Assembly: GCF_900102915.1 (NCBI RefSeq)
Contig: NZ_FNGG01000001.1
Coordinates: 744,001 to 808,000 of the forward strand
Direction: 5' to 3'
Length of the DNA: 64,000 nt
Origin: Salinimicrobium catena
GTDB lineage: Bacteria; Bacteroidota; Bacteroidia; Flavobacteriales; Flavobacteriaceae
Part shown: positions 24,870 to 37,858 of the stretch, one piece after another
Layout: every line of letters begins with the position of its first letter
Numbering within the stretch: the stretch's first letter is position 1
Translations under genes and position numbers: made by a program
The notes under the pieces: model-generated
What the model saw: the letters and a program-made list of their open reading frames with translations, nothing else
Databases searched by the model: none
Told to the model about the DNA's origin: nothing

Positions 24870-26024
24870 ATGCACAGATTTCCTTTAAAGTTAGACAAAA
24901 ACCTTCAGTTAAGAAAGGATGCCAATTCCTTCAGGAAACTGGGTGCCCGGGAGAGGAAGATAGATCTTGCTTCCAATGATTACCTGGGCCTTACTTCAAG
25001 TTTAAGCATTCTTGAGGAGGTTCAGCGAATTCTGAAAGAGAAGGATTTGTTAAAAAATGGCGCCGGGGGTTCCAGGCTTCTTACAGGAAACCACCTTCTG
25101 TACGACCTGGCCGAAACTGAGGTTTCTGATCTATTTTCTTCGGAAAGCGCGCTGATCTTCAATTCAGGCTATGATGCCAATATAGGTTTCTTCTCAAGCC
25201 TTCCGCGACGCGGCGACTATATCATTTATGATGAGCTTTCCCACGCTTCCATAAGAGACGGAATTGCTTTGAGTAAGGCCAAGGCTTTTAAATTTAAGCA
25301 TAATGATCTCAAGGATCTGGAAGAAAAGATAAGCAGGGTCAAAAAAGACATTTTTGAAGGCGAGATCTACGTCGTGACTGAAGCAGTGTTTTCTATGGAC
25401 GGGGATATGCCCGACCTTAATGGCCTGATAGAAATTTCTGAAAAATACGGCTGTTTACCAATTTTAGATGAAGCGCATGCAGCGGGAGTAATAGGCGAAA
25501 ATGGAAAAGGGTCGGTGACCGGTCTTCCTCTTCAGGAAAAGATCTTCGCAAGACTCGTGACCTTTGGGAAGGCTTTTGGAGCGCATGGGGCTGCGATCCT
25601 GGGGAGCAATAAACTGAAGGATTATCTGGTGAATTTCTCGCGCAGCCTTATCTACACTACGGCAATGCCTCCGCATTCCGTAGCGACCATTGTGGCGGCC
25701 ACGAGGCATCTGCAGGGAGAAGGACAACAGGAACTGGAAAAGCTTCGGTCGAACATCAGGTTCTTTACTTCAGAAGTGATAAAAAATGATCTGCAGGAAA
25801 GGTTTATTCCTAGTTTTTCAGCCATTCATTCATGTATCATTCCGGGAAATTCCGAAGTAAAAAGAATAGCCTCCGCTCTGCAGGCTGAAGGATTTGATGT
25901 AAAACCCATACTTTCGCCCACAGTGAGCGAAGGAAAGGAACGGTTGAGATTTTGTCTTCACAGCTCCAATTCTGAAGAAGAACTTTCGGCTGTCGTATCT
26001 TTGCTGGCCCGTCTCATTAAATAA
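24870..26024 (+). CDS. bioF: 8-amino-7-oxononanoate synthase
   Basis: 384 residues, PLP-dependent alpha-oxoamine synthase that condenses pimeloyl-ACP/CoA with L-alanine in biotin synthesis. Visible motifs: GAGGSRLLTGNH, NSGYDANIG, DELSHASIRDG, DEAHAAGVIGENGKG and the Schiff-base Lys234 in TFGKAFGAHGA. Length is normal. A weak -7-like TATATTTT lies just upstream (24855-24862). bioD follows 18 nt downstream. Confidence 0.94.
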   Translation: MHRFPLKLDKNLQLRKDANSFRKLGARERKIDLASNDYLGLTSSLSILEEVQRILKEKDLLKNGAGGSRLLTGNHLLYDLAETEVSDLFSSESALIFNSGYDANIGFFSSLPRRGDYIIYDELSHASIRDGIALSKAKAFKFKHNDLKDLEEKISRVKKDIFEGEIYVVTEAVFSMDGDMPDLNGLIEISEKYGCLPILDEAHAAGVIGENGKGSVTGLPLQEKIFARLVTFGKAFGAHGAAILGSNKLKDYLVNFSRSLIYTTAMPPHSVATIVAATRHLQGEGQQELEKLRSNIRFFTSEVIKNDLQERFIPSFSAIHSCIIPGNSEVKRIASALQAEGFDVKPILSPTVSEGKERLRFCLHSSNSEEELSAVVSLLARLIK

Positions 26025-26042
26025 TCCTTCAAAAAAAGCAAA

Positions 26043-26666
26043 ATGGAAACTTATTTTATAACAGGAATTGGTACCGAGGTAGGTAAGACCATTGCCTCGG
26101 CCATAGTTACAGAAGCCCTGGAAGCCGATTACTGGAAACCCATCCAGGCCGGTGATCTGGATCATTCAGATACCCATAAGGTGAAGGAAATGGTGAGTAA
26201 TCAAAAGACGATTTTCCACCCCAATAGCTTTGCCCTAGAAACCCCCATGAGTCCGCATGCGGCAGCCGAAATTGACGGAGTGGAAATTGCTGCGGAAAAG
26301 ATAAATGAACCGAAAACCGAAAACGACCTGGTCATTGAAGGGGCAGGAGGGCTACTTGTGCCCATTAACGATACCCAGACCATCGCGGATATCATTAAAC
26401 CCCACCACAAAGTGATCCTGGTTTCACGATATTACCTCGGGAGCATCAATCATACCCTGCTTACTGCCGAAGCGCTTAAAAGCAGGGGGCTGAACTGCAT
26501 AGGGGTTATTTTTAACGGAGAAAAGACCCCTTCTTCAGAAGAGATCATTCTCAAAATGACCGGCCTGCCGACACTTTTGCACATTGACCAGGAAGAGAAT
26601 TTTGACAGGGAAACTGTAAAGCGATACGCTAAAAAGCTAAGAGAGGCTTTAAAAGCTGAATCTTAG
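26043..26666 (+). CDS. bioD: Dethiobiotin synthetase
   Basis: 207 residues. P-loop enzyme that closes the ureido ring of dethiobiotin with ATP and CO2. The N-terminus ITGIGTEVGKTIAS is the modified Walker A; KPIQAGD and EGAGGLLVPI are the substrate-binding segments. It is probably co-transcribed with bioF. Its last 18 nt overlap the 3' end of the convergent TonB-receptor gene, an unusual join that may mark where the neighbouring block was inserted. Confidence 0.95.
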   Translation: METYFITGIGTEVGKTIASAIVTEALEADYWKPIQAGDLDHSDTHKVKEMVSNQKTIFHPNSFALETPMSPHAAAEIDGVEIAAEKINEPKTENDLVIEGAGGLLVPINDTQTIADIIKPHHKVILVSRYYLGSINHTLLTAEALKSRGLNCIGVIFNGEKTPSSEEIILKMTGLPTLLHIDQEENFDRETVKRYAKKLREALKAES

Positions 26667-29189
26667 AGAAGCATTTGGGGTAAAGCCCAAAGAGGTATTG
26701 TTGACCTCCACGGCCTCCTGGGGGGAATTCTCGTTCACCCTGTAATAGCGGTTGATGATGTTCTTGCGGTCCAGCAGATTTTGGATCCCCAGCCCAATGG
26801 TAAGCGTTCCTGAATTTTCGAATTCCATTTTATAAGAGGAGGAAAGGTCTACCCTGAAGAAGGAAGGCAAAACAGCGGCGTTTGGGGTAGTGTAATTCAC
26901 CACCCAGTTATTTCCCTCCCGCCTGGTCTCATCGCTTTCCACCGGCCTGGTATACGGCTTTCCGCTTCGCAGATAACCGCCCGCCGAAAATTTGAAATTC
27001 CGGTAAGAATAATTTGCAGCCAGGGAAACAGAATGCCTTATGTCAAAATTGTTCGGAAAAGTTGAAGGAGTGAGTTCTTCAAAGGTATAATCGTTCTTGC
27101 CAAAAGTATAATTAAGGTAGGTGTGTAGCGCCCTGGTCTTTTTGTTGATGAGCACTTCAAAACCTTTTGCGGTATAGCTGCCCGAGGTTCTTATAAACTC
27201 ATGCTGGTCCTGGAATCCCTGGTTGGAGGTGCTGATTCCTTCTACAAATTTGTAGTAAGCCTCCAGATCTAAATACCAGCCTCTGGCTTTAAAATCAAAG
27301 CCGGCAGAAACCTGTTTGCTCTTTATGATGGGATAGGTCTCATTATCGGCCAGGATCCATCTGCGGTTCTCCACTCCCAGAAAATCCTCCTGCAGATCGA
27401 TTATCTGGCTGGTGGTCTGACTTTTTACTTCGGCCAGGGTTTTAAAGGATACTTTCCTTCCCAGTTCCTGGTTGAAACTAAGCCTGGGTTCCACAAGAAA
27501 TTCTTTGAATTTGGAAATATAGTTCAGCCGCAAGCCCCCTCTCAAAAACGTAGTTTCTCCGGAATAGTTTCCTTCCGCATAAACAGCGTTATTTCTGATG
27601 ACATTTTTAATGGTGCTGCTAAAGAACGGGTTGTTCAGGTTTTCAATATTGGAAACTCCGACTTCAGAGAACTGATATCCGCTGAAAAGTTGAAAGTAAG
27701 GTGTAAATGTTTTGGTGGTTTTCAGTTTAAAGCCGGTTTCCAGCACTTCGTTCTCCTGGATAAGGCGCTGATCCACGTTGACAGAGTGGTTCATGGCCTC
27801 CAGCCTGTAATGCGTGAGGTAAGTAATGGCTTCAGTAGAAAAGCTGCTGCTCCAGTCTGCTTTCCAGGTTCCGCCCAATGCCAGGTTGTCTTGCCCCAGA
27901 TTGCTTCTGCGCGTTTCTTCGGAAGAAGAGTTAAGCTCGGTGTAGCCCAGTTCGTTGTGCACCTGCATCAGGGAAAAACGGAATTTCTGGGCCTCGTTCA
28001 GATCATACAGAAGTTTAAGGCTGGTGTCGTAATAGCTGAAATTAGAATCCTCGAAATTCTCATCATCTGAGCTGAAGGCGATCTCAGAATCCTGAAAAGT
28101 GCGGGAAAAATAATTATTGTAGGTAGGAGTGTTGACAAAGTCATTTATGGATCTTCTCCCGGAAACCTGAAGCTCCAGTTTTTCGGAAACCGGAACCTGC
28201 AAAAAGGCGTCGGCGCTTACTAAGTTAATTCCGACTCCCCCTGCGAATTCTCCTGAAAGTTCGTCTTTTGAAAAGATCTCTATGGTACCCGATACCCCGT
28301 CGCTCAGCCTGGCGCTGCTCCCGTTCTTGGTCACCAGCACTTCGCTGGTTAGATTAGGATTAAAGGCAGAGATCAGTCCGAAGAAATGGCCTGTGAGATA
28401 CATTTTTATGCCATCAAACAATACCAGGTTCTGGTCGCTGGTTCCTCCACGTATGTTGATGTTAGAAACTGTTTCGTTCACACTTTCCACCCCGGGCAGG
28501 GCTTCGACCGTCTGGAGCACATCGGGTTCTATCTGTCCCGGAAGGGTGCCGAAGCGTGCGGTGTTGATAAATGTGGAACCGTCATGCTTCTTGCTGATCC
28601 CCGACGTGAGGTAGTTGACGACAATGGCTTCCTGTAGGGCAACTATAGATGGTTCTAAGAAAATAGTGGAGCAATCCTCTCCAGGGGCAGTGGCCTTGAC
28701 AAGTGTTTCCCTGTAGCCTAAAAACCGGATAATAAATTCGGTTCCTTCAGTGATCCCCGAAAAACTGAATTTTCCATTGGCATTGGTGACGGTGTAATCT
28801 AAACCATCTGCAGCTTGCACAGTAGCTCCCTGTAGAGGTTCTCCTGTCTGACTGTCCACGATGATTCCGCAGTAATCAATGATCGCGGGGGAGTAGGTGA
28901 TGGCGATATAGCGTTCGTCAAGCACCTCAAAGTTCAATACGGTTTGAGATTCCAGGTGGTCAATGACCTCCTGCAAGGTGATCTTCGGTTGCGGTTTGGT
29001 TACCTCCAGGCCTGCCAGATCCTGCTCCCGGTAGGAAAAACGTACGTCATATTTCGCTTCCAGGGATGGGAGAAGTTCCTTCAGCAGTACCTTGTCTGGT
29101 ACTTCTTCCTGCGCCTGCAGTGCGCCACAGCAGAATAGAAAAGTGGTGAAAAAGAGAGTGAGCAGCCAATTCCTGGAGCTATTCTTCAT
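26649..29189 (-). CDS. TonB-dependent outer-membrane receptor with STN and carboxypeptidase-like domains
   Basis: 846 residues. Order: signal peptide (to about residue 26), STN/secretin-TonB short domain (~30-105) that contacts FecR, CarboxypepD_reg-like domain (~110-195; GEPLQGATVQ), plug (~215-300, with INIRGGTSDQNLVLFDGIKM in part) and a beta-barrel ending in Phe (ASLRFSF). The STN domain plus the upstream fecR and ECF sigma genes make it a surface-signalling transducer. No SusD partner is present, so the substrate is open; iron chelates or other small ligands are possible. The ATG overlaps the fecR stop by 11 nt. Confidence 0.93.
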   Translation of the reverse strand: MKNSSRNWLLTLFFTTFLFCCGALQAQEEVPDKVLLKELLPSLEAKYDVRFSYREQDLAGLEVTKPQPKITLQEVIDHLESQTVLNFEVLDERYIAITYSPAIIDYCGIIVDSQTGEPLQGATVQAADGLDYTVTNANGKFSFSGITEGTEFIIRFLGYRETLVKATAPGEDCSTIFLEPSIVALQEAIVVNYLTSGISKKHDGSTFINTARFGTLPGQIEPDVLQTVEALPGVESVNETVSNINIRGGTSDQNLVLFDGIKMYLTGHFFGLISAFNPNLTSEVLVTKNGSSARLSDGVSGTIEIFSKDELSGEFAGGVGINLVSADAFLQVPVSEKLELQVSGRRSINDFVNTPTYNNYFSRTFQDSEIAFSSDDENFEDSNFSYYDTSLKLLYDLNEAQKFRFSLMQVHNELGYTELNSSSEETRRSNLGQDNLALGGTWKADWSSSFSTEAITYLTHYRLEAMNHSVNVDQRLIQENEVLETGFKLKTTKTFTPYFQLFSGYQFSEVGVSNIENLNNPFFSSTIKNVIRNNAVYAEGNYSGETTFLRGGLRLNYISKFKEFLVEPRLSFNQELGRKVSFKTLAEVKSQTTSQIIDLQEDFLGVENRRWILADNETYPIIKSKQVSAGFDFKARGWYLDLEAYYKFVEGISTSNQGFQDQHEFIRTSGSYTAKGFEVLINKKTRALHTYLNYTFGKNDYTFEELTPSTFPNNFDIRHSVSLAANYSYRNFKFSAGGYLRSGKPYTRPVESDETRREGNNWVVNYTTPNAAVLPSFFRVDLSSSYKMEFENSGTLTIGLGIQNLLDRKNIINRYYRVNENSPQEAVEVNNTSLGFTPNASLRFSF

Positions 29190-30087
29190 ACAAAATGACT
29201 TTCTGGGCAGAAACGATCTTGTACTCGATTTTCAAAGGAATCGTAATGGCTTTAAGGGCGATCTCCTTGTTCTTATGGCTAAAGCTGCCCGTAAAGCGCT
29301 GGCTTAGATCTACATTCCTGGTTTCAATCTTCACATCAAACTGTCGTTCCAGTTCGGTGACCACCTGGATAAAAGGGACTGCATCAAAATAGGATTCATT
29401 TACGGTCCAACCGGGGTTATTGCCTTCAAAAGCCTTCACTCCTAAAACATCTCCGGCTACGACCTTGACCGAACTCCCTTTTTGCAGAATGATCTCCCTG
29501 TTCGAAACATTCACCTTTACCGCTCCTTTATAACAGTAAACCTCAAAATAATCTTTTCTGTCCTTCACATTGAACTTTGTTCCGAGTACAGATACCTCCC
29601 CCTGATCGGTCTCCACTGTGAATTTCTTTCCTTTTTCAACTTCAAAGAAAGCTTCTCCTTCCAGCTGCAATTTCCTTTGTTTTTCCCATTTCGAAGGCCT
29701 GTATTTAAGACGGGAATCGGCGTTAAGCTTTACCACTGAATTATCTGGAAGCTCTACCACGGCGATCTCAGAATTCTGAGTAGTGATCACTTCGGGCCTG
29801 TTCATTAAGAAAAATATTCCGGAGGAAATGATGACCACCAGTACGGCTGCGATCTTATAGTATTTTGAGAAGTTAAGTTTCTTTACCGGCGTTTCTTTAG
29901 GCGCAGACAATCTTGCTTTAAGGTCTTGCAGAGCCTTTTGTTCATCGAATTGAGGCCTCTTAAACTTTGAAGCATTTTCAACAATTGGTTTGTATGCCTG
30001 GTAGTCAGAGGTTTTTTTGAATTCCTCCAGTTCGCGGGCGTCGAGCTCATTGTTGAGCCATTTTGATATGAGGTCCTTGTTTTCCAT
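29179..30087 (-). CDS. FecR-family anti-sigma factor
   Basis: 302 residues. An N-terminal cytosolic region (MENKDLISKWLNNELDARE) typical of Bacteroidota FecR, one membrane helix (about residues 80-96), a periplasmic FecR domain (VKLNADSRLKY; GEAFFEVEKG; VLGTKFNV) and a C-terminal DUF4974 region. It should hold the sigma factor at 30147-30656 inactive until the receptor binds ligand. A GGGTAGGGT/TTGTTTTAT promoter lies immediately upstream, so the fecR-receptor operon can be transcribed separately from the sigma gene and be auto-induced. Confidence 0.93.
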   Translation of the reverse strand: MENKDLISKWLNNELDARELEEFKKTSDYQAYKPIVENASKFKRPQFDEQKALQDLKARLSAPKETPVKKLNFSKYYKIAAVLVVIISSGIFFLMNRPEVITTQNSEIAVVELPDNSVVKLNADSRLKYRPSKWEKQRKLQLEGEAFFEVEKGKKFTVETDQGEVSVLGTKFNVKDRKDYFEVYCYKGAVKVNVSNREIILQKGSSVKVVAGDVLGVKAFEGNNPGWTVNESYFDAVPFIQVVTELERQFDVKIETRNVDLSQRFTGSFSHKNKEIALKAITIPLKIEYKIVSAQKVILYEE

Positions 30088-30097
30088 GTTTCTGTAG

Positions 30098-30129
30098 ATA
30101 AAACAACTAAGAAGAGTTTTACCCTACCC
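30098..30129 (-). promoter_or_regulatory. Predicted ECF promoter of the fecR-receptor operon
   Basis: On the minus strand GGGTAGGGT (30129-30121), 14 nt, then TTGTTTTAT (30106-30098). The same two boxes at the same spacing occur at 30713-30744 and 31699-31730. The ATG of fecR is 10 nt downstream, so the leader would be extremely short. Confidence 0.7.
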
Positions 30130-30146
30130 GCAAAATGATAAAAAAA

Positions 30147-30656
30147 TTAAAAGTTATCCAACCTCGAACGCAGCTTTTTCAAGGCGCCCATCATTCTTTT
30201 CTCTACTGCTTTTTCCGAAATATCTAAAAGTTCGGCGATTTCCCGGTATTTTTTTCCGTCTATCCTGTTCATGAGGAACACTTCCCGCTGGGCTTCGGTA
30301 AGATCGGCGATGGCATTTTCAAGTTGTTCCATATACTCTTTTTCCTGCAGCACGAACTGAGGATCTTCGGCTGTGCCAGCTGCTGCCGGTTGCTGTTGGG
30401 CGTAAGCTAGTTTAACTTTTTGGTGCTTTACAACGTTCAGGAAAAGATTATTGGCAGTGGTGAAGAGATAGCTTTTGGCTTTCTCAATCTGAATCTTTCC
30501 GCAGTTCTGAAAAATCTTGACAAAGGCTTCCTGTACAAGGTCCATAGCCTGGTCTTCGTCACCCGATTTGTAATACATGAAGTTGTAAAGATCCCGGGAA
30601 TATTTTAAGTAAAAACCGTTGAAAACCTTATCGTTACATAAATTCTCTTGAGGCAT
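30147..30656 (-). CDS. ECF RNA polymerase sigma factor (FecI-like)
   Basis: 169 residues with sigma region 2 (YSRDLYNFMYYKSGDEDQAMDLVQEAFVK, in part) and region 4 (LTEAQREVFLMNRIDGKKYREIAELLDIS, in part). It lacks the extra domains of long ECF groups. The partner anti-sigma factor and receptor lie directly downstream. I infer that it reads the three GGGTAGGGT promoters in this locus. Its own 5' region (30657-30712) shows no perfect housekeeping -7 box. Confidence 0.93.
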   Translation of the reverse strand: MPQENLCNDKVFNGFYLKYSRDLYNFMYYKSGDEDQAMDLVQEAFVKIFQNCGKIQIEKAKSYLFTTANNLFLNVVKHQKVKLAYAQQQPAAAGTAEDPQFVLQEKEYMEQLENAIADLTEAQREVFLMNRIDGKKYREIAELLDISEKAVEKRMMGALKKLRSRLDNF

Positions 30657-30712
30657 CTATAGGGGGCTTGAATAATATAACGGGTCAAAACTATTTATTT
30701 TTTTACGGAGGA

Positions 30713-30744
30713 GGGTAGGGTTAACTTTCTTTTAACTGTTATAT
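30713..30744 (+). promoter_or_regulatory. Predicted ECF promoter of the first DUF4382 lipoprotein gene
   Basis: GGGTAGGGT (30713-30721), 14 nt, CTGTTATAT (30736-30744), then TATAGAA. Similarity to the fecR promoter extends beyond the boxes. The ATG lies 69 nt downstream. Confidence 0.7.
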
Positions 30745-30813
30745 GTATAGAATGGTGTGATTTCTTAAAATAGGAGATCAGCCAAAATTACATTTTAACC
30801 CAAATCATTAATT

Positions 30814-31587
30814 ATGAAAAATGTTTTCAAACTATTTACCTGCCTGGCTGTCATAGGACTTGCCTTCACTAGTTGTTCAACAGACGATTCCAAAGAAGGA
30901 GCCGGATTTAGCGTTAAACTGGTTGACGCTCCCGGAGATTACGAAAAAGTACTTGTAGATGTTCAGGCCATTGAGGTGATCCTTGACGGGGAAGCCCATG
31001 AACTCCCTGTTGCCGAACCTGGGGTCTATGATCTGCTGGAGCTTACCGGGGGAGTAAGCGCCATGCTGGTAGAAACCGTGCTTCCTGCCGGAAAAATGAG
31101 TCAGATGAGACTTATTTTAGGAGAAGAGAACTCGGTTGTGGCCAACGGGGATACTCTTGAACTTAAAACTCCAAGCGCGCAACAATCCGGACTAAAACTG
31201 AACGTACACCAGGAACTTCAGTCGGGAATTCTTTATAATTTCATCCTTGACTTCAACGTCGCGAAGTCTGTGGTGGAAGCTCCAGGGGAAGGTTTGATCC
31301 TGAAGCCTGTGCTAAGAGCTACTCTTGAAGCTCAAAGCGGAGCGATCTCAGGAGTTGTGACTCCGGCCGAAGTTCAGAGTCTTGTTACTGCAAAGCAGGA
31401 CAGCCTTGAAATCTCCGCGCACACTACCCCGGATACTGGAGCCTTCTTATTATATGGTGTGCCTGCCGGTACCTACCAGGTGACTGTAACGCCAGATTCT
31501 ACTTCAGGTTTTTCCCCTGTGATTATAGAAGATGTTGTGGTTCAAAAAGGAACTATAAAAGATCTTGGCTCTGTTTCCCTGGAGTAA
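30814..31587 (+). CDS. DUF4382 lipoprotein with carboxypeptidase-like C-terminal domain
   Basis: 257 residues. Lipobox FTSC (Cys21) followed by STDD. Residues ~30-165 match DUF4382 (VKLVDAPGDYEKVLVDVQAIEV in part; VLPAGKMSQMRLIL; ILDFNVAKSVV). The C-terminal ~85 residues (GAISGVVTPAE...YGVPAGTYQVTV) look like a CarboxypepD_reg/DUF2012 beta-sandwich. Function unknown; probably surface-exposed. It diverges from the ECF sigma gene and carries the predicted ECF promoter, so it is likely induced together with the receptor and may bind or process the same ligand. Confidence 0.85.
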   Translation: MKNVFKLFTCLAVIGLAFTSCSTDDSKEGAGFSVKLVDAPGDYEKVLVDVQAIEVILDGEAHELPVAEPGVYDLLELTGGVSAMLVETVLPAGKMSQMRLILGEENSVVANGDTLELKTPSAQQSGLKLNVHQELQSGILYNFILDFNVAKSVVEAPGEGLILKPVLRATLEAQSGAISGVVTPAEVQSLVTAKQDSLEISAHTTPDTGAFLLYGVPAGTYQVTVTPDSTSGFSPVIIEDVVVQKGTIKDLGSVSLE

Positions 31588-31612
31588 AAATATTGGACTT
31601 GACCTGCTTTTT

Positions 31613-31648
31613 AAAAAGGGTGGTAACCGTTGGTTGCTGCCCTTTTTC
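31613..31648 (+). terminator. Candidate terminator after the first DUF4382 gene
   Basis: AAAAAGGG (31613-31620) and CCCTTTTT (31640-31647) form an 8-bp stem around a 19-nt loop. The T residues are part of the stem, so efficiency is uncertain. Confidence 0.5.
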
Positions 31649-31698
31649 AGTCTATAGAGCTGAAAAAGAGAAATAAAATAAATTTTTTTTCGGGTTAG

Positions 31699-31730
31699 GG
31701 GTAGGGTAAATGAAAGCAGGGTTGTTTTAT
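31699..31730 (+). promoter_or_regulatory. Predicted ECF promoter of the tandem-repeat lipoprotein gene
   Basis: GGGTAGGGT (31699-31707), 14 nt, TTGTTTTAT (31722-31730); the -10-like box is identical to that of fecR. An in-frame ATG at 31710 lies inside this promoter, so translation should start at 31767 instead. Confidence 0.7.
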
Positions 31731-31766
31731 TACCAGAACAAGCAATTGGAACAGCAATTAAAAGTG

Positions 31767-32438
31767 ATGAAAAATTTTCTGAACATATACCTTCTTATTC
31801 TCGGCCTGTTGGTTGTAGCCTGCCAGACCGAAAAGCACGAAGTGCTTACTGAAGAGAACTCGGTTAGCTTTACAGAAGGTTCAGAGTTTTACAACCTGGT
31901 AGAGCGCAGTGCTATGCATGACGGGTCACAGGACGATGAGCTGGATCAAAGCCCTTGCTTCTCAATAAGTTTTCCCTATAAGGTCATCCTTGAAGGCGTG
32001 GAGATTAGAATAGCCTCTTTGGCCGATCTTATGGTTGTGCTCAGCAGGACGGGGAACGGCGGATTGGAAAGTATTGAGCTTGTTTTTCCGGTAGCTGTAA
32101 CCACCTCTTCTTATGAAAAGATAAGCGTAAGCAGTTGGGAAGAGCTAAGAGAGCTGCAGGAAAGCTGTGTGGCGGAGATCGCAGCCAACGCGGCGCCCAT
32201 AACCTGTGCCGCCATAGAATTTCCGGTGAAGATGCTGGTCTACAATACAAATACACAGGAAACCACTTCAGCTAACCTGGCAAATAAACAGCAGCTGTAT
32301 GTTTTCCTTCAGAATAAAGCGCCTCACGAGGTCCTTAGCTTTGAATACCCTGTCACTGTTTCCTTTGAAGGAAGTTCAGAAATGGAGGTGAACAACAGTA
32401 TGGAACTCAGGAACGCTTTAAGAACCTGCAATAATTAA
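31767..32438 (+). CDS. Lipoprotein with four short internal repeats
   Basis: 223 residues from ATG 31767, which gives a proper lipoprotein signal (LLVVAC, Cys19); an upstream ATG at 31710 would add 19 residues ahead of it and lies within the promoter. The mature part has four related units of ~35 residues, each with a strand containing FPxxV and a later hydrophobic helix (ISFPYKVILEG/LADLMVVL; LVFPVAVTT/WEELRELQ; IEFPVKMLV/QQLYVFLQ; FEYPVTVSF/MELRNALR), with Cys at unit ends. I do not recognise a named family. It is part of the predicted ECF regulon, between two DUF4382 genes. Confidence 0.8.
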   Translation: MKNFLNIYLLILGLLVVACQTEKHEVLTEENSVSFTEGSEFYNLVERSAMHDGSQDDELDQSPCFSISFPYKVILEGVEIRIASLADLMVVLSRTGNGGLESIELVFPVAVTTSSYEKISVSSWEELRELQESCVAEIAANAAPITCAAIEFPVKMLVYNTNTQETTSANLANKQQLYVFLQNKAPHEVLSFEYPVTVSFEGSSEMEVNNSMELRNALRTCNN

Positions 32439-32467
32439 TCTCTAAACTTAATCTAAATAGTTAAACC

Positions 32468-32488
32468 GTGGCAGGTCAAAACTGCCAC
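32468..32488 (+). other. Perfect 7-bp hairpin between two lipoprotein genes
   Basis: GTGGCAG, 7-nt loop, CTGCCAC. No T run follows, so it is not a classical terminator; it may be a processing or stability element in the message. Confidence 0.45.
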
Positions 32489-32502
32489 ACAAATCAAATG
32501 TT

Positions 32503-33453
32503 ATGAATTACAGAAATTTATTCAAAGTCGGATTTTTACTTTTTTCAATGCTTTTTATCGTCTCCTGCTCAAAAGATGAGGATGATAACACAGAGCCTTC
32601 TGCAGAAACTTATAACACCACTGTAGAAGTTACCGATGCCCCCATAGATAATGCAGAGGTAAAGGGAGCTTTTGTGACCATTACCAATATTAAGATCAAC
32701 GGGAAAGCCTTGGAAGGATTCAATACCACAACCGTAGATCTGCTGGCATATCAAAATGGTGAAACATTGCCTCTGGGCGATGTTGATCTTGAAGCAGGTG
32801 CCACTTCAACTATTGTTGTTGAGCTTTCTAATGATGCTGATGATAAGGGAGAAGCTGTGGCAAATTACATCTTATTAGAAGGTGGTGAGAAAGTTGAACT
32901 GGCTTTAGGAACTACCGAAATTGTCTTAACAGATGCCGCTGAGGTCGTTGCAGGCGCGAATAATGCTATCGTACTTGATTTTGATCTTAGAAAAATGATC
33001 GCTGCCGAGGGAGAAGGTTATAAATTTGTATCGGGAAGTGATCTTCAAGGGAGTATTCGTGCCGTAAACAGGGTTAATGCTGGTGCCATAGCAGGAACAG
33101 TAGAAGATTCAAACGATACTGCTGAAACTATTGTGGTTTACGCTTATGAAAAAGGAAAATACTCAGCTGATCAGGCTAACGAAAACGCCAGTGGAGTTGC
33201 ATTTTCAGGTGCTGTGAACAGCGCTGTGGTGAGTGAAACTAATGGCAGCTACTCTCTAAATTTCCTTGAAGAAGGTGAATATGAACTTCATTACGCTGCT
33301 TATGAGCAGGATGAGACTACCGGAGAAATGACCTTTAAAGGAATGTTAGCAGTTACCGCAGCTACTGGTTTAGATTTTGAAATCTTAGGATTAAGTATCG
33401 CTGCTAGGAGTACTACTAAAGCAGATGTTGTTGTTACCGGAATGAAGCAATAA
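32503..33453 (+). CDS. DUF4382 lipoprotein (second copy)
   Basis: 316 residues. Lipobox IVSC (Cys22) followed by SKDEDD, a strongly acidic stretch that fits surface export. Residues ~35-190 match DUF4382 (VEVTDAPIDNAEVKGAFVTI in part; IVLDFDLRKMIA). The C-terminal part (GAIAGTVEDSNDTAETIVVYAYEKG in pieces; GSYSLNFLEEGEYELHYAAY) is carboxypeptidase-regulatory-like. It shares its plan with the protein at 30814. No ECF-type promoter was found directly before it, so it is probably read from the promoter at 31699. Confidence 0.85.
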   Translation: MNYRNLFKVGFLLFSMLFIVSCSKDEDDNTEPSAETYNTTVEVTDAPIDNAEVKGAFVTITNIKINGKALEGFNTTTVDLLAYQNGETLPLGDVDLEAGATSTIVVELSNDADDKGEAVANYILLEGGEKVELALGTTEIVLTDAAEVVAGANNAIVLDFDLRKMIAAEGEGYKFVSGSDLQGSIRAVNRVNAGAIAGTVEDSNDTAETIVVYAYEKGKYSADQANENASGVAFSGAVNSAVVSETNGSYSLNFLEEGEYELHYAAYEQDETTGEMTFKGMLAVTAATGLDFEILGLSIAARSTTKADVVVTGMKQ

Positions 33454-33473
33454 TTAGAATTAGAGTTTTATAG

Positions 33474-33502
33474 AAAAGCCCCTCCACTTGAGGGGCTTTT
33501 TT
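33474..33502 (+). terminator. Intrinsic terminator after the DUF4382 locus
   Basis: AAAAGCCCCTC and GAGGGGCTTTT form an 11-bp stem with loop CACTT, followed by T residues. Confidence 0.92.
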
Positions 33503-33514
33503 ATGCCGTTTCTT

Positions 33515-33522
33515 TAGCTTTG
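33515..33522 (+). promoter_or_regulatory. -7 box (TAGCTTTG) before bioA
   Basis: Perfect TAnnTTTG, 21 nt before the ATG at 33544. An in-frame TTG at 33520 falls inside the box and is not a likely start. Confidence 0.6.
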
Positions 33523-33543
33523 CCTTCTGAAAGACCAGATCTT

Positions 33544-34824
33544 ATGAAGAAGGAAAATTTATCTCTCGCGCAAAGAGATCAAAAACACTTGTGGCACCCC
33601 CTCACCCAACACAAAACTTCGGGCAAAATGCTGCCCATTGTAAAGGCGATGGGAGCTTCCCTTTTTGATGATAAGGGCAAGGAATACATTGACGGCATTG
33701 CCAGCTGGTATACGGCAGTGTATGGACATTGCAACAAAAAGATCACCCAAAGGGTCGCCGCCCAGATGCAGCAGCTGGACCAGGTCGTGTTTAGCGGGTT
33801 CACTCATGCTCCTGCTATAGAACTTTCCGAAGCTTTGATCAACATCCTCCCGAATAATCAGCAGAAATTATTTTTTAGCGACAACGGTTCTACCGCTACA
33901 GAGATCGGGATAAAAATGGCCTTGCAGTACCATCACAACCAGGGAAATGACCGCAAGGTGATGTTGGCTTTTGAGGAAGGCTTTCACGGAGACACATTCG
34001 GGGCCATGTCAGTTTCGGGATTATCGGTTTATAATGGCGCTTTTGAGGAGCATTTCATAGAAGTAGTACGGCTAGCGGTTCCCATGGGAAATAATAATCG
34101 TGAGGTTTTGGAGCAGCTTCGGGATCTTATTTCTAAATACAATATTGCCGGCTTCATCTACGAACCCCTGGTGCAGGGAGCCGCAGGCATGAAAATGCAT
34201 GATGCCGAAGGGCTAAATACTATACTGAAGGTTTGTAAGCAGAACAATATTATCACCATTGCCGATGAGGTGATGACCGGTTTTGGAAAGACCGGAAAGA
34301 ATTTCGCTTCTGAATACCTGGAAACCAGCCCGGATATCATTTGCATGTCAAAAGCCCTGACTGCCGGACTGCTGCCAATGGCGATCACTTCCTGTACGCA
34401 GGCAATCTTCGACGCCTTCTATTCAGAAGACATTTCAAAAGGGCTTTTTCACGGCCATACCTATACCGCCAATCCGTTGGCTTGTACGGCTGCCCTGGCC
34501 GGATTGGAATTACTCACTTCTAAAGAGATTCAACAGGATATAAAGAGAGTGATGGAATCTCACCAACAATTTGGACAAAGAATAAAAGATCATTCAAAAG
34601 TGAAGAATTTGAGGCAGCTCGGCGTGATCATCGCTTTTGAACTGGACGTGGAAATGGAGCGCTACGGAGACTTACGGAATCAGCTTTTCGCACATTTTAT
34701 GGAAAATGGCGTTTTTCTGCGCCCTCTTGGAAGTACGATTTACATCTCTGCCCCTTACATCATTTCCAAGGTGGAACTGGAAAAAATATATTCTGCCATA
34801 GAAGCTGCGCTTGAAAAGTTTTGA
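33544..34824 (+). CDS. bioA: Adenosylmethionine-8-amino-7-oxononanoate aminotransferase
   Basis: 426 residues from ATG 33544. Class III PLP aminotransferase making 7,8-diaminopelargonate in biotin synthesis. Features: HLWHPLTQH at the N-terminus (the BioA substrate-binding HPxTQ region), GIASWYTAVYGHCN, FFSDNGSTATE, FHGDTFGAMSVSG, and Schiff-base Lys270 in CMSKALTAG. The HTYTANPLACTAALA segment is also typical. It has its own promoter after the terminator that isolates it from the preceding lipoprotein genes. Confidence 0.95.
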   Translation: MKKENLSLAQRDQKHLWHPLTQHKTSGKMLPIVKAMGASLFDDKGKEYIDGIASWYTAVYGHCNKKITQRVAAQMQQLDQVVFSGFTHAPAIELSEALINILPNNQQKLFFSDNGSTATEIGIKMALQYHHNQGNDRKVMLAFEEGFHGDTFGAMSVSGLSVYNGAFEEHFIEVVRLAVPMGNNNREVLEQLRDLISKYNIAGFIYEPLVQGAAGMKMHDAEGLNTILKVCKQNNIITIADEVMTGFGKTGKNFASEYLETSPDIICMSKALTAGLLPMAITSCTQAIFDAFYSEDISKGLFHGHTYTANPLACTAALAGLELLTSKEIQQDIKRVMESHQQFGQRIKDHSKVKNLRQLGVIIAFELDVEMERYGDLRNQLFAHFMENGVFLRPLGSTIYISAPYIISKVELEKIYSAIEAALEKF

Positions 34825-34889
34825 GTCGGCAGTTATTTTTAGCATTTCATATTGCTTATTTCGTATTTTAGACTGAAATTCAGTCTATT

Positions 34890-35480
34890 ATGATGCATCC
34901 TCATACCGAAGTAAGGTTCATTAGCAAGGAAATTGGCCATGGTGTTGTGGCGACCAGGTTCATTCCCAGGGGTACCATTACCTGGGTACAGGATGAACTG
35001 GACAGGGTTCTTACTCCGGCTGAGGTTGAAAAGATGCGTCCCCAGACCCGAGAGCTGGTAGACAAATATTCCTTCAGGAACAATAAAGGACATTTTGTGC
35101 TTTGCTGGGACCTTTCCAAATACGTAAATCATAGCTTCAGGTCGAACTGTCTTTCCACAGCCTATGATTTTGAACTTGCGGTTAGGGATATAAATGAAGG
35201 GGAGCAGCTGACAGATGATTATGGCTACCTTAATGTGGTCGAGCCATTCAAAGCGCTTGATGAAGGTGCAGAGCGTGATACAGTTTATCCGGACGATCTT
35301 TTGCGCTATCATCAGGAGTGGGATGCACAGCTATTTCAGGCTTTCAGGCACTTTAAACAGGTAGAGCAGCCTTTGCTGTCATTTGTGCCTCAAAAGGTGC
35401 TTGAGAACATTCGTCAGAAACTGAACAACAATGAGCCCCTGGATTCCATTCTGAACCTCTATTGCGGAGAAATTAACTGA
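34890..35480 (+). CDS. SET-domain protein
   Basis: 196 residues. The sequence follows the SET lysine-methyltransferase fold: HGVVATRFIPRGTITW (SET-N), the knot-forming KYVNHSFRSNCLSTAYDFELA (given in parts, NHS motif) and the EGEQLTDDYGYLN element. The usual post-SET cysteines are missing. The C-terminal ~65 residues are helical. The substrate is unknown. It sits between bioA and the ketoacyl synthase, on the same strand. Two adjacent ATGs (34890, 34893) make the start uncertain by one residue. Confidence 0.85.
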   Translation: MMHPHTEVRFISKEIGHGVVATRFIPRGTITWVQDELDRVLTPAEVEKMRPQTRELVDKYSFRNNKGHFVLCWDLSKYVNHSFRSNCLSTAYDFELAVRDINEGEQLTDDYGYLNVVEPFKALDEGAERDTVYPDDLLRYHQEWDAQLFQAFRHFKQVEQPLLSFVPQKVLENIRQKLNNNEPLDSILNLYCGEIN

Positions 35481-35510
35481 TTTCTGCAGGGAATTCTGGA
35501 TCTCAGCCCT

Positions 35511-35518
35511 TATTTTTG
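35511..35518 (+). promoter_or_regulatory. -7 box (TATTTTTG) before the ketoacyl synthase gene
   Basis: Perfect TAnnTTTG. Transcription would start near 35525, so the leader is only about 2 or 11 nt depending on which TTG start codon is used. Confidence 0.6.
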
Positions 35519-35535
35519 CCCCAAAATTGCAATTT

Positions 35536-36717
35536 TTGAAAACGAACATATCTATTACCTCGGTAGGAGCTGTATCAGCTTTAGGTTCGGCTGAATTAGA
35601 GGTTTGGGAACATTATAAAGAGGAGCGCCATTTTCTTCGGAAGCATGACTTTGCGGGCACCGAAGCTTTTGGAGCTTTTTTGCCTGAAAGGCTGCGATTG
35701 GAGATCGAACAATTACGGGAAGAAAACCCGAACTTCAAAAAAGTGGATGATTCTGTTCTTTTTGGGGTCTATGCCTCGAGAAAGGCAGTGCAAAAGGCAG
35801 TATGGGAAAAGGGAGAAGAAATAGGCATCAATATTGGCAGTTCCCGTGGGGCCACGTCACTTTTTGAAAATTACCACCGGGACTTTCTCCAGAACGGCAA
35901 GGCTAACACTCTAACCTCGCCAAACACTACTTTGGGTAACATTTCCTCCTGGGTAGCACAGGATCTGCAGAGCAATGGAGTGGAGATCTCCCATTCGGTA
36001 ACCTGTTCAACCGCGCTGCATGCCGTTTTGAACGGGGTGGCCTGGATCAATTCGGGGATGACCCAAAAATTTCTGGCCGGTGGTAGCGAGGCTGCCTTAA
36101 CACCTTTTACCATATCCCAGGTGCAGGCCATGAAAATTAGCGCCAGGGAAGATATGGACTATCCCTGTCAGGCCCTGAACCTTCAAAAAAAGCAGAATTC
36201 CATGGTGCTTGGAGAAGGGGCGGCGGTGATCTGTATGGAGGCCGGGGAACGGGAAAATGCACTCGCTTTGATCTCGGGGGTTGGATATGCTACGGAAAGA
36301 TTGAAGCATTCAGTTTCAATTTCAGCTAATGGCTCGGCATTTCAGCAGTCCATGAAAATGGCAATGGGAGATCTTTCTCCGGCTGAAGTTGACGCGATCG
36401 TAATGCATGCCCCCGGTACCATCAAGGGAGACCTTTCAGAAATGAAGGCCATAAAGGCTGTCTTTGGGAAGGAATTACCTGCCCTCACCACCAATAAGTG
36501 GAAAATAGGGCATACCTTCGGGGCTTCGGGTACCCTGAGCCTGGAGCTGGCAATTCTTATGCTGCAGCAGGGGGAATTCATTTCGGTTCCTTTTTCTTCG
36601 GAAAGTAAGGCCCCTAAAAAACTGAGGAATATCCTGGTCAATGCGGTAGGTTTCGGCGGAAACGCGGTAACTATCCTGGTAAGCCTTCCGAAGCAAACAC
36701 GGGAAAAAGCTTTTTGA
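35536..36717 (+). CDS. Beta-ketoacyl synthase of the biotin cluster
   Basis: 393 residues from TTG 35536 (TTG 35527 would add three). Thiolase-fold condensing enzyme with a complete Cys-His-His triad: Cys157 in SVTCSTALHA, His291 in VMHAPGT and His326 in IGHTFGASG. A GGSEAALTPF segment and the Gly-rich C-terminus NAVGFGGNAV agree with FabF/KAS II relatives. Placed between bioA and bioB, it may build the pimeloyl chain; this is inference, and housekeeping fatty-acid elongation is the alternative. No ATG exists near the expected N-terminus. Confidence 0.88.
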   Translation: MKTNISITSVGAVSALGSAELEVWEHYKEERHFLRKHDFAGTEAFGAFLPERLRLEIEQLREENPNFKKVDDSVLFGVYASRKAVQKAVWEKGEEIGINIGSSRGATSLFENYHRDFLQNGKANTLTSPNTTLGNISSWVAQDLQSNGVEISHSVTCSTALHAVLNGVAWINSGMTQKFLAGGSEAALTPFTISQVQAMKISAREDMDYPCQALNLQKKQNSMVLGEGAAVICMEAGERENALALISGVGYATERLKHSVSISANGSAFQQSMKMAMGDLSPAEVDAIVMHAPGTIKGDLSEMKAIKAVFGKELPALTTNKWKIGHTFGASGTLSLELAILMLQQGEFISVPFSSESKAPKKLRNILVNAVGFGGNAVTILVSLPKQTREKAF

Positions 36718-36743
36718 AGCAGGCGAAACAAATGCATTTTATT

Positions 36744-36751
36744 TACTTTTG
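36744..36751 (+). promoter_or_regulatory. -7 box (TACTTTTG) before bioB
   Basis: Perfect TAnnTTTG, 18 nt before the ATG at 36770. The in-frame TTG at 36749 lies inside it and was rejected as the start of bioB. Confidence 0.6.
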
Positions 36752-36769
36752 AATTTCAAAAACATAATT

Positions 36770-37858
36770 ATGGCGATTAGGCACGACTGGACAAAAGAAG
36801 AGATACTCGAGATATATAATAAACCTTTTATGGAGCTGCTTTACGAAGCGGCCACTATTCACCGGGAACACCATGATCCCAATACCGTGCAGGTTTCGAC
36901 GCTTTTGTCGATCAAGACCGGGGGCTGTCCCGAAGATTGCGGGTACTGTCCGCAGGCGGCCCGTTATCACACAGATCTTGAGGGTAATGATTTGATGAGC
37001 GTGAACCAGGTGAAAGCTCAGGCCTTAAGAGCCAAGGAATCGGGTAGCTCGCGAGTTTGTATGGGTGCGGCGTGGAGAAATGTAAAAGACGGGGAAGAGT
37101 TTGATAATGTGCTTGAAATGGTGCGTACCATCAATAAGCTTGACATGGAAGTTTGCTGTACTTTGGGAATGCTTACCGAAAATCAGGCCCAGCGCTTGGC
37201 GGAAGCCGGACTTTACGCGTATAACCATAACCTTGACTCTTCAGAAGAGTATTATAAAGAGGTGATCTCAACCCGCGGTTTTGAAGACCGACTTAAAACT
37301 ATAGACAACGTAAGGAAAACGAACGTTACTGTTTGTAGCGGAGGAATAATCGGGATGGGTGAAACCGTTGAAGATCGTGCCGGAATGCTAGTTGCTTTAT
37401 CAACTTTAAGTCCGCAGCCTGAATCTGTGCCTATCAATGCCTTGGTGCCTGTGGAAGGAACTCCGTTAGCCGAACAGGAGCAGGTGCCTATCTGGGATAT
37501 GATCAGGATGGTGGCGACAACGCGTATCGTCATGCCTGAAACCCAGGTGAGATTATCTGCTGGAAGGACCCAAATGAGCAGGGAAGGGCAGGCCATGTGC
37601 TTCTTTGCCGGGGCGAACTCTATTTTCGCCGGAGATAAGCTGCTCACTACTCCAAACCCGGATGTGAACGAGGATATGCAAATGTTCAAAGCTTTGGGAT
37701 TGAATCCGCAGAAACCATTCACCAAAAAGTCGCAGCCCGAAAGCGTAGATGCCGAAAATTCGAAGTTTCAAAATCTTGGGGAGAAGCCAAAATGGTCAAG
37801 GCCCGGGCATACCATTGAACGTAACCTTGCGGCACAGGGTAAGTCTAAAAAGGCTTAA
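36770..37858 (+). CDS. bioB: Biotin synthase
   Basis: 362 residues from ATG 36770. Radical-SAM enzyme that inserts sulphur into dethiobiotin. The [4Fe-4S] cluster motif is Cys53-x3-Cys57-x2-Cys60 (GGCPEDCGYCPQ). Further conserved parts are ESGSSRVCMGAAWR, YNHNLDSSEEYY, CSGGIIGMGE and RLSAGR, whose Arg binds the [2Fe-2S] cluster, and the C-terminal FFAGANSIFAGDKLLTT. With bioF, bioD and bioA in the window, the late biotin pathway is complete; no bioC or bioH is seen. Confidence 0.97.
   Translation: MAIRHDWTKEEILEIYNKPFMELLYEAATIHREHHDPNTVQVSTLLSIKTGGCPEDCGYCPQAARYHTDLEGNDLMSVNQVKAQALRAKESGSSRVCMGAAWRNVKDGEEFDNVLEMVRTINKLDMEVCCTLGMLTENQAQRLAEAGLYAYNHNLDSSEEYYKEVISTRGFEDRLKTIDNVRKTNVTVCSGGIIGMGETVEDRAGMLVALSTLSPQPESVPINALVPVEGTPLAEQEQVPIWDMIRMVATTRIVMPETQVRLSAGRTQMSREGQAMCFFAGANSIFAGDKLLTTPNPDVNEDMQMFKALGLNPQKPFTKKSQPESVDAENSKFQNLGEKPKWSRPGHTIERNLAAQGKSKKA

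Follow-up and report, generated by a model that had tools for sequence, protein, structure and literature searches.

A FecI-type sigma factor gene of Salinimicrobium catena bracketed by candidate copies of its own promoter

Which promoters does a FecI-type sigma factor read, and can they be recognized from the genome alone? The question is raised by a 64,000-nucleotide stretch of the genome of the flavobacterium Salinimicrobium catena (contig NZ_FNGG01000001.1, positions 744,001 to 808,000; hereafter, the window), in which a first-pass annotation described three bipartite sites with a 14-nt spacing around a gene for an ECF sigma factor and regarded them as promoters read by that factor. A motif scan of the window bore out the description: all three sites match GGGTAGGGT-N14-YTGTTWTAT exactly (Table 1), AGAA begins 4 nt after the box at each of them and, as the annotation had also noted, the window contains no fourth site, even at up to 3 mismatches. 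Shuffled versions of the window yielded 0.22 matches on average and 2 at most, with 0 of 100 reaching 3. Two of the sites, promoters 1 and 2, bracket the sigma gene and face outward from it. The third overlaps the start of a listed open reading frame (31710), so that the ATG at 31767 is the likely start of the repeat lipoprotein (hereafter, REP).

Table 1. Features of the signalling locus in window coordinates
Feature	Position	Strand	Evidence
TonB-dependent receptor, 846 aa	26649..29189	-	Pfam Plug (33.1 bits, cut-off 23.9) and CarbopepD_reg_2 above cut-off; signalling-like domain at the N-terminus, with a carboxypeptidase-like domain and a plug
FecR regulator, presumed anti-sigma factor, 302 aa	29179..30087	-	Pfam FecR (PF04773, 79.4 bits, cut-off 24) and FecR_C (PF16344, 35.8 bits, cut-off 24.4); adjoins sigma gene
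Promoter 1, for fecR-receptor (candidate)	30098..30129	-	Exact motif; GTAGGG 22 nt before TGTT; putative start 30093, leader 6 nt
FecI-type ECF sigma factor, 169 aa	30147..30656	-	Sigma70_r2 and Sigma70_r4_2 above cut-off; TIGR02937 93.2 bits (cut-off 42.9)
TAGTTTTG box, possible promoter element of sigma gene	30686..30693	-	-37 from sigma start; resembles housekeeping TAnnTTTG box
Promoter 2, for DUF4382 lipoprotein (candidate)	30713..30744	+	Exact motif, spacing; putative start 30749
DUF4382 lipoprotein, 257 aa, beta-rich	30814..31587	+	PF14321 107.6 bits (cut-off 25); model mean pLDDT 77.2
Promoter 3, for repeat lipoprotein (candidate)	31699..31730	+	Exact motif, spacing; putative start 31735
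Repeat lipoprotein (REP), 223 aa, four beta-beta-beta-alpha repeats	31767..32438	+	Alignment A1, profile scans, model mean pLDDT 86.6
Second DUF4382 lipoprotein, 316 aa	32503..33453	+	PF14321 61 bits (cut-off 25); no own motif

The sigma factor scores 124.4 bits against TIGR02985 (Sig70_bacteroi1), just below the cut-off of 126.4, and the N-terminal FecR_C match of the receptor (residues 35-95, 18.5 bits) likewise falls below the Pfam cut-off of 24.4. The second DUF4382 gene is probably co-transcribed with the REP gene. The module is surrounded by genes of a biotin cluster (window 24870-37858), in the order bioF-like, bioD, module, bioA, beta-ketoacyl synthase-like, bioB; in five Tenacibaculum loci (L076, L077, L081, L082, and L088), the module is likewise found near bioB.

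In the complete set of 26 contigs of this genome (3.26 Mb), there are four exact copies of the motif, the three in the window and one at C24:533678-533709 (minus strand), 240 kb away from the former, which ends 49 nt before a gene for a 243-aa lipoprotein, LIP4a. Thus, each of the four exact copies stands before a module gene or a lipoprotein gene. With 1 mismatch permitted, the genome yields 4 matches compared to 0 for the reversed control; at up to 3 mismatches, the respective numbers are 16 and 9, so that degenerate matches are mostly background and the set for this genome was taken to consist of four promoters. The LIP4a protein scores below the cut-offs for both DUF4382 (16.1, cut-off 25) and MbnP (15.8, cut-off 27). 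Its gene adjoins one for a tyrosine-recombinase-like protein (L130:6898-9002), which might explain its position away from the sigma module.

Conservation of the arrangement was examined in the best 80 of the 86 loci found with the sigma protein, which come from records titled Flavobacterium, Polaribacter, Tenacibaculum, Lutibacter, Salinimicrobium, Salegentibacter, and other Bacteroidetes. The full module, with a divergent REP gene followed by the genes for sigma, FecR, and TonB receptor, is present in 73 of these 80 loci; FecR follows sigma in 79 and the receptor is found in 78. A divergent REP homologue is located within 2.2 kb in 75 loci and a DUF4382 gene in 6, that is, the common partner is the repeat lipoprotein, not DUF4382. 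When the window is added (81 loci), a looser form of the motif is detected on the fecR side in 74 loci, on the divergent side in 64, and on both sides in 57, with at least one side lacking it in 24; the 80 loci contain 183 matches to this looser form compared to 25 for the reversed control. With the exact spacing, GTAGGG[AT]-N15-TGT[CT]NTA, there are 124 sites in the 1.43 Mb covered by the same best 80 of 86 loci compared to 1 for the reversed control.

How closely is the motif tied to sigma genes? The expectation of the first-pass annotation that copies would keep to ECF loci held in part. Among the 124 exact-spacing sites, 110 flank a sigma gene, and the other 14 do not by the distance rule (3 head REP homologues, 2 head other lipoprotein genes, 3 precede the sigma gene itself, and the remaining 6 head small or unclear reading frames or none). 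The expectation fared less well in the genomes of the genus and the family, where a copy with no more than 1 mismatch is carried by 2 of the 12 genus genomes (S. catena included) and 121 of the 397 family genomes, with few reversed-control matches in the table; one family genome, G228, contains 15 copies, the most in the table. In 13 of 32 such motif loci, a sigma homologue is found within 1.5 kb. Among the 19 without one, the motif is followed by a REP or DUF4382 family gene in 5 and by other genes in 8, and in the remaining 6 no reading frame of 80 aa occurs within 350 nt. Thus, 14 head no recognized module gene, and outside the S. catena genome the motif also occurs apart from module genes. 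At L053:5978, a motif copy precedes a gene whose small product looks secreted and is rich in histidine and tyrosine.

The pairing of the flanks was also assessed without a preset motif. FecR matches, ranked by E-value, were listed for 50 of 60 family genomes, and 100 places, 80 of them with a shorter FecR frame and 20 with a longer one, were chosen among the matches listed; together with the window and one further locus (L129), this gave 102 loci, of which 83 remained after removal of 18 without an adjacent sigma-FecR pair and one with a short flank (L146). For each sigma gene, a two-box element common to both flanks was sought and assessed against 100 shuffles, so that p cannot fall below 0.01, with 0.05 as the threshold. 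An outward-facing pair was detected in 51 of the 55 loci with a divergent REP or DUF4382 gene, in 5 of the 12 loci with a similar sigma and no match to either family on the divergent side, and in 1 of the 16 loci with a distant sigma (below 150 bits in the sigma profile), 7 of which encode a long FecR (at least 377 aa).

The spelling of the boxes was compared across 151 sigmas, of which 136 have confident fecR-side codes and 113 have codes on both flanks. All 128 high-scoring fecR-side sites show one and the same spacing, although 10 to 17 nt were permitted and the code parser mildly favours a spacer 1 nt shorter than the one found. The -35 hexamer is the same on both flanks in 99 of 113 cases (in 5000 re-pairings, mean 62 and maximum 76), and so is the C or T of the -10 box in 108 of 113 (mean 62, maximum 80). 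The residues that best track the -35 class are Y137, D35, E148, F72, L40, and M156. E148 and M156 lie in or beside what we take to be the recognition helix; D35, L40, and F72 do not, and may be only clade markers. M38, which is also among the best-tracking residues, is, like D35, outside the presumed DNA-reading regions. In the rows displayed, the TCAGGA group has VEYR compared to VEKR in nearly all sigmas with GT- spellings. The first base of the -10 box tracks residue 77 best, which lies in what is presumably region 2.4. In a kinship-corrected, tree-based test, the covariation between sigma residues and promoter bases was not significant, and much of it is explained by kinship.

These spellings bear on the strongest alternative, namely, that a single common ECF promoter is read by several FecI-type sigmas in each genome, without any private code. 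GTAGGG is indeed the commonest spelling, accounting for 100 of the 136 confident fecR-side sites (GTAGGA, 22; TCAGGA or TCAGGG, 11; other, 3); in other sub-families, however, GTAGGA or TCAGGA stands on both sides, and S. catena itself carries a second module with a different code, so that we consider a common promoter unlikely. A genome search identified two FecR genes, the second one on contig C6, in a module of the same layout (REP homologue, sigma, FecR, and receptor, with 21, 43, 42, and 39 percent identity to the respective window proteins). This module is devoid of GTAGGG and has GGGTAAAT-N12-GWTGTTATAT on both flanks. Its code, GGGTAA, has 3 matches in the whole genome when 2 mismatches are permitted, all of them within 5.4 kb, and was not found in the 198 other genomes searched. 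The third match, about 5 kb from the C6 module, precedes LIP4b, which is nearly identical to LIP4a (85.7 percent for the protein and 87.6 percent for the coding DNA) and is similarly below the DUF4382 and MbnP cut-offs (15.3 and 18.9, respectively, with cut-offs of 25 and 27).

Thus, two near-identical genes carry the codes of different modules, GTAGGG for LIP4a and GGGTAA for LIP4b. Each code begins 22 nt before TGTT in its own module; GGGTAA is also present in three of the four promoters of the first module, but at 19 nt. The LIP4b promoter contains TGTTGTT, so that both offsets, 19 and 22, are available, which suggests, in this one genome, that a 3-nt register switch could move a gene between codes. 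A distant LIP4 homologue (25 percent identity) adjoining the module in locus L111 has GTAGGG together with TGTTGTT, as read by eye. A broader proposal, to which we give even weight for and against, is that flavobacterial FecI-type sigma genes with a divergent REP gene label themselves, each having a copy of its own promoter on either side, facing outward, with the code readable from the genome alone. The -35 code, at 22 nt from TGT, would be determined by the recognition helix (GT- goes with VEKR and TC- with VEYR in most displayed rows, and the last base with residue 148); GTAGGGTAA would contain two codes 3 nt apart, so that a slip of this length, as in TGTTGTT, could transfer a gene between sigmas, as the LIP4a and LIP4b pair suggests.

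Bipartite sites can also be operators, and some copies are far from any sigma homologue, as might be the case if the sites were bound by another DNA-binding regulator encoded elsewhere rather than read as promoters. The geometry of the sites makes this reading highly improbable: the 22-nt offset is constant, the sites stand on both flanks of the sigma gene in a common spelling, and a start-like pyrimidine-purine step follows at a set distance. Of 114 sites, 109 have a pyrimidine at the fourth base beyond the -10 box and 112 have a purine at the fifth, a step that the AGAA noted in the first-pass annotation fits; the first in-frame fecR start codon is located, at the median, 17 nt downstream (63 loci). 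Applied to the window, this pattern yields the putative starts at 30093 (-), 30749 (+), and 31735 (+). That the flank pairs are leftovers of a duplicated DNA segment devoid of regulatory meaning, as the likeness and proximity of the copies could suggest, deserves hardly any credence, given that mainly the boxes and the spacing match while the spacers differ, one copy is 240 kb away, and the layout recurs across genera. Altogether, the flank position in many genera, the constant spacing, the pyrimidine-purine step, and the spelling common to both flanks support the original assignment of the sites as probable promoters of the adjacent sigma.

Judging from these sequence features, the locus is, in all likelihood, a Fec-type cell-surface signalling module in which the sigma factor controls its own receptor and surface lipoproteins through four promoters, and is best read as one of an unnamed family of such systems. 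The sigma gene itself may be transcribed by the housekeeping polymerase. TAnnTTTG is quoted as the housekeeping promoter box (PMC9723704), and similar boxes stand before sigma genes in 27 of 81 loci, whereas three control patterns reach 16, 8, and 15 of 81, and 19 of 34 such boxes are located 31 to 50 nt before the gene; this hints at, but does not prove, a housekeeping promoter for the sigma gene. By analogy with the known Fec pathway, a ligand bound at the TonB receptor would signal through FecR and activate the sigma factor, which would then read GTAGGG-N16-TGTTWTAT and switch on four units: fecR-receptor, the DUF4382 lipoprotein, REP with the second DUF4382 protein, and the distant LIP4a. 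With the two copies pointing away from the sigma gene, the receptor, FecR, and the lipoproteins, which might work jointly with the receptor, would rise together and the sigma factor would be left out. Such omission of the sigma gene is not universal: in three Flavobacterium loci (L099, L100, and L102), the motif precedes the sigma gene itself, suggestive of positive self-control.

The module ties a receptor to an unnamed lipoprotein family. The REP protein of the window has no Pfam match at an E-value of 0.1, and among the 22 members scanned, no family matches more than two. The predicted model of four repeats produced no clear match in a fold comparison, which does not by itself establish a novel fold. 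REP matches were detected in 30 of 247 genomes of the phylum, 24 of these in the same family. In loci L011, L032, and L033 of other flavobacteria, motif copies precede lipoprotein-like genes carrying long GYYDD-type repeats that partly match the REP profile.

The recurrence of the flank layout in flavobacteria with differing spellings yields a candidate promoter for each sigma, may allow the DNA target of each to be read, and links -35 spelling to recognition-helix residues. Among the promoters described previously, motif SM6 of Flavobacterium psychrophilum, an ECF promoter motif, features a CGT box and is found upstream of secretion genes (PMC9723704); it resembles the present motif as an ECF-type promoter of Flavobacteriaceae and differs in the box and the genes served. 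The same start-site study allows that other ECF-controlled starts may remain and leaves open the share of the seven ECF sigmas (PMC9723704). In Bacteroides thetaiotaomicron, TGTT near -10 is found in promoters linked to the ECF sigmas SigW-1 and SigH-1, although the authors call the SigW-1 motif not significant (PMC12596196); these non-canonical promoters share TGTT with ours, and the available part of that report mentions neither a flank pair nor a GTAGGG box. Other FecI/FecR loci of Flavobacteriaceae, those with distant sigmas, are alike in the FecI-type sigma gene next to fecR and differ in that the flank pair is rare among them.

The closest system is ferric citrate signalling by FecI, FecR, and FecA of Escherichia coli, which similarly combines an ECF sigma, FecR, and a TonB receptor. 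In E. coli, FecI reads the receptor promoter and the fecIR transcript is not autoregulated (PMC9249621). There, fecI and fecR share one transcript from another promoter, whereas here a motif copy of its own lies between fecR and the sigma gene, and fecR runs together with the receptor gene; divergent genes for surface lipoproteins are added. The module thus appears to be a variant of known Fec-type signalling, set apart by the motif copy between sigma and fecR and by the additional surface lipoprotein genes.
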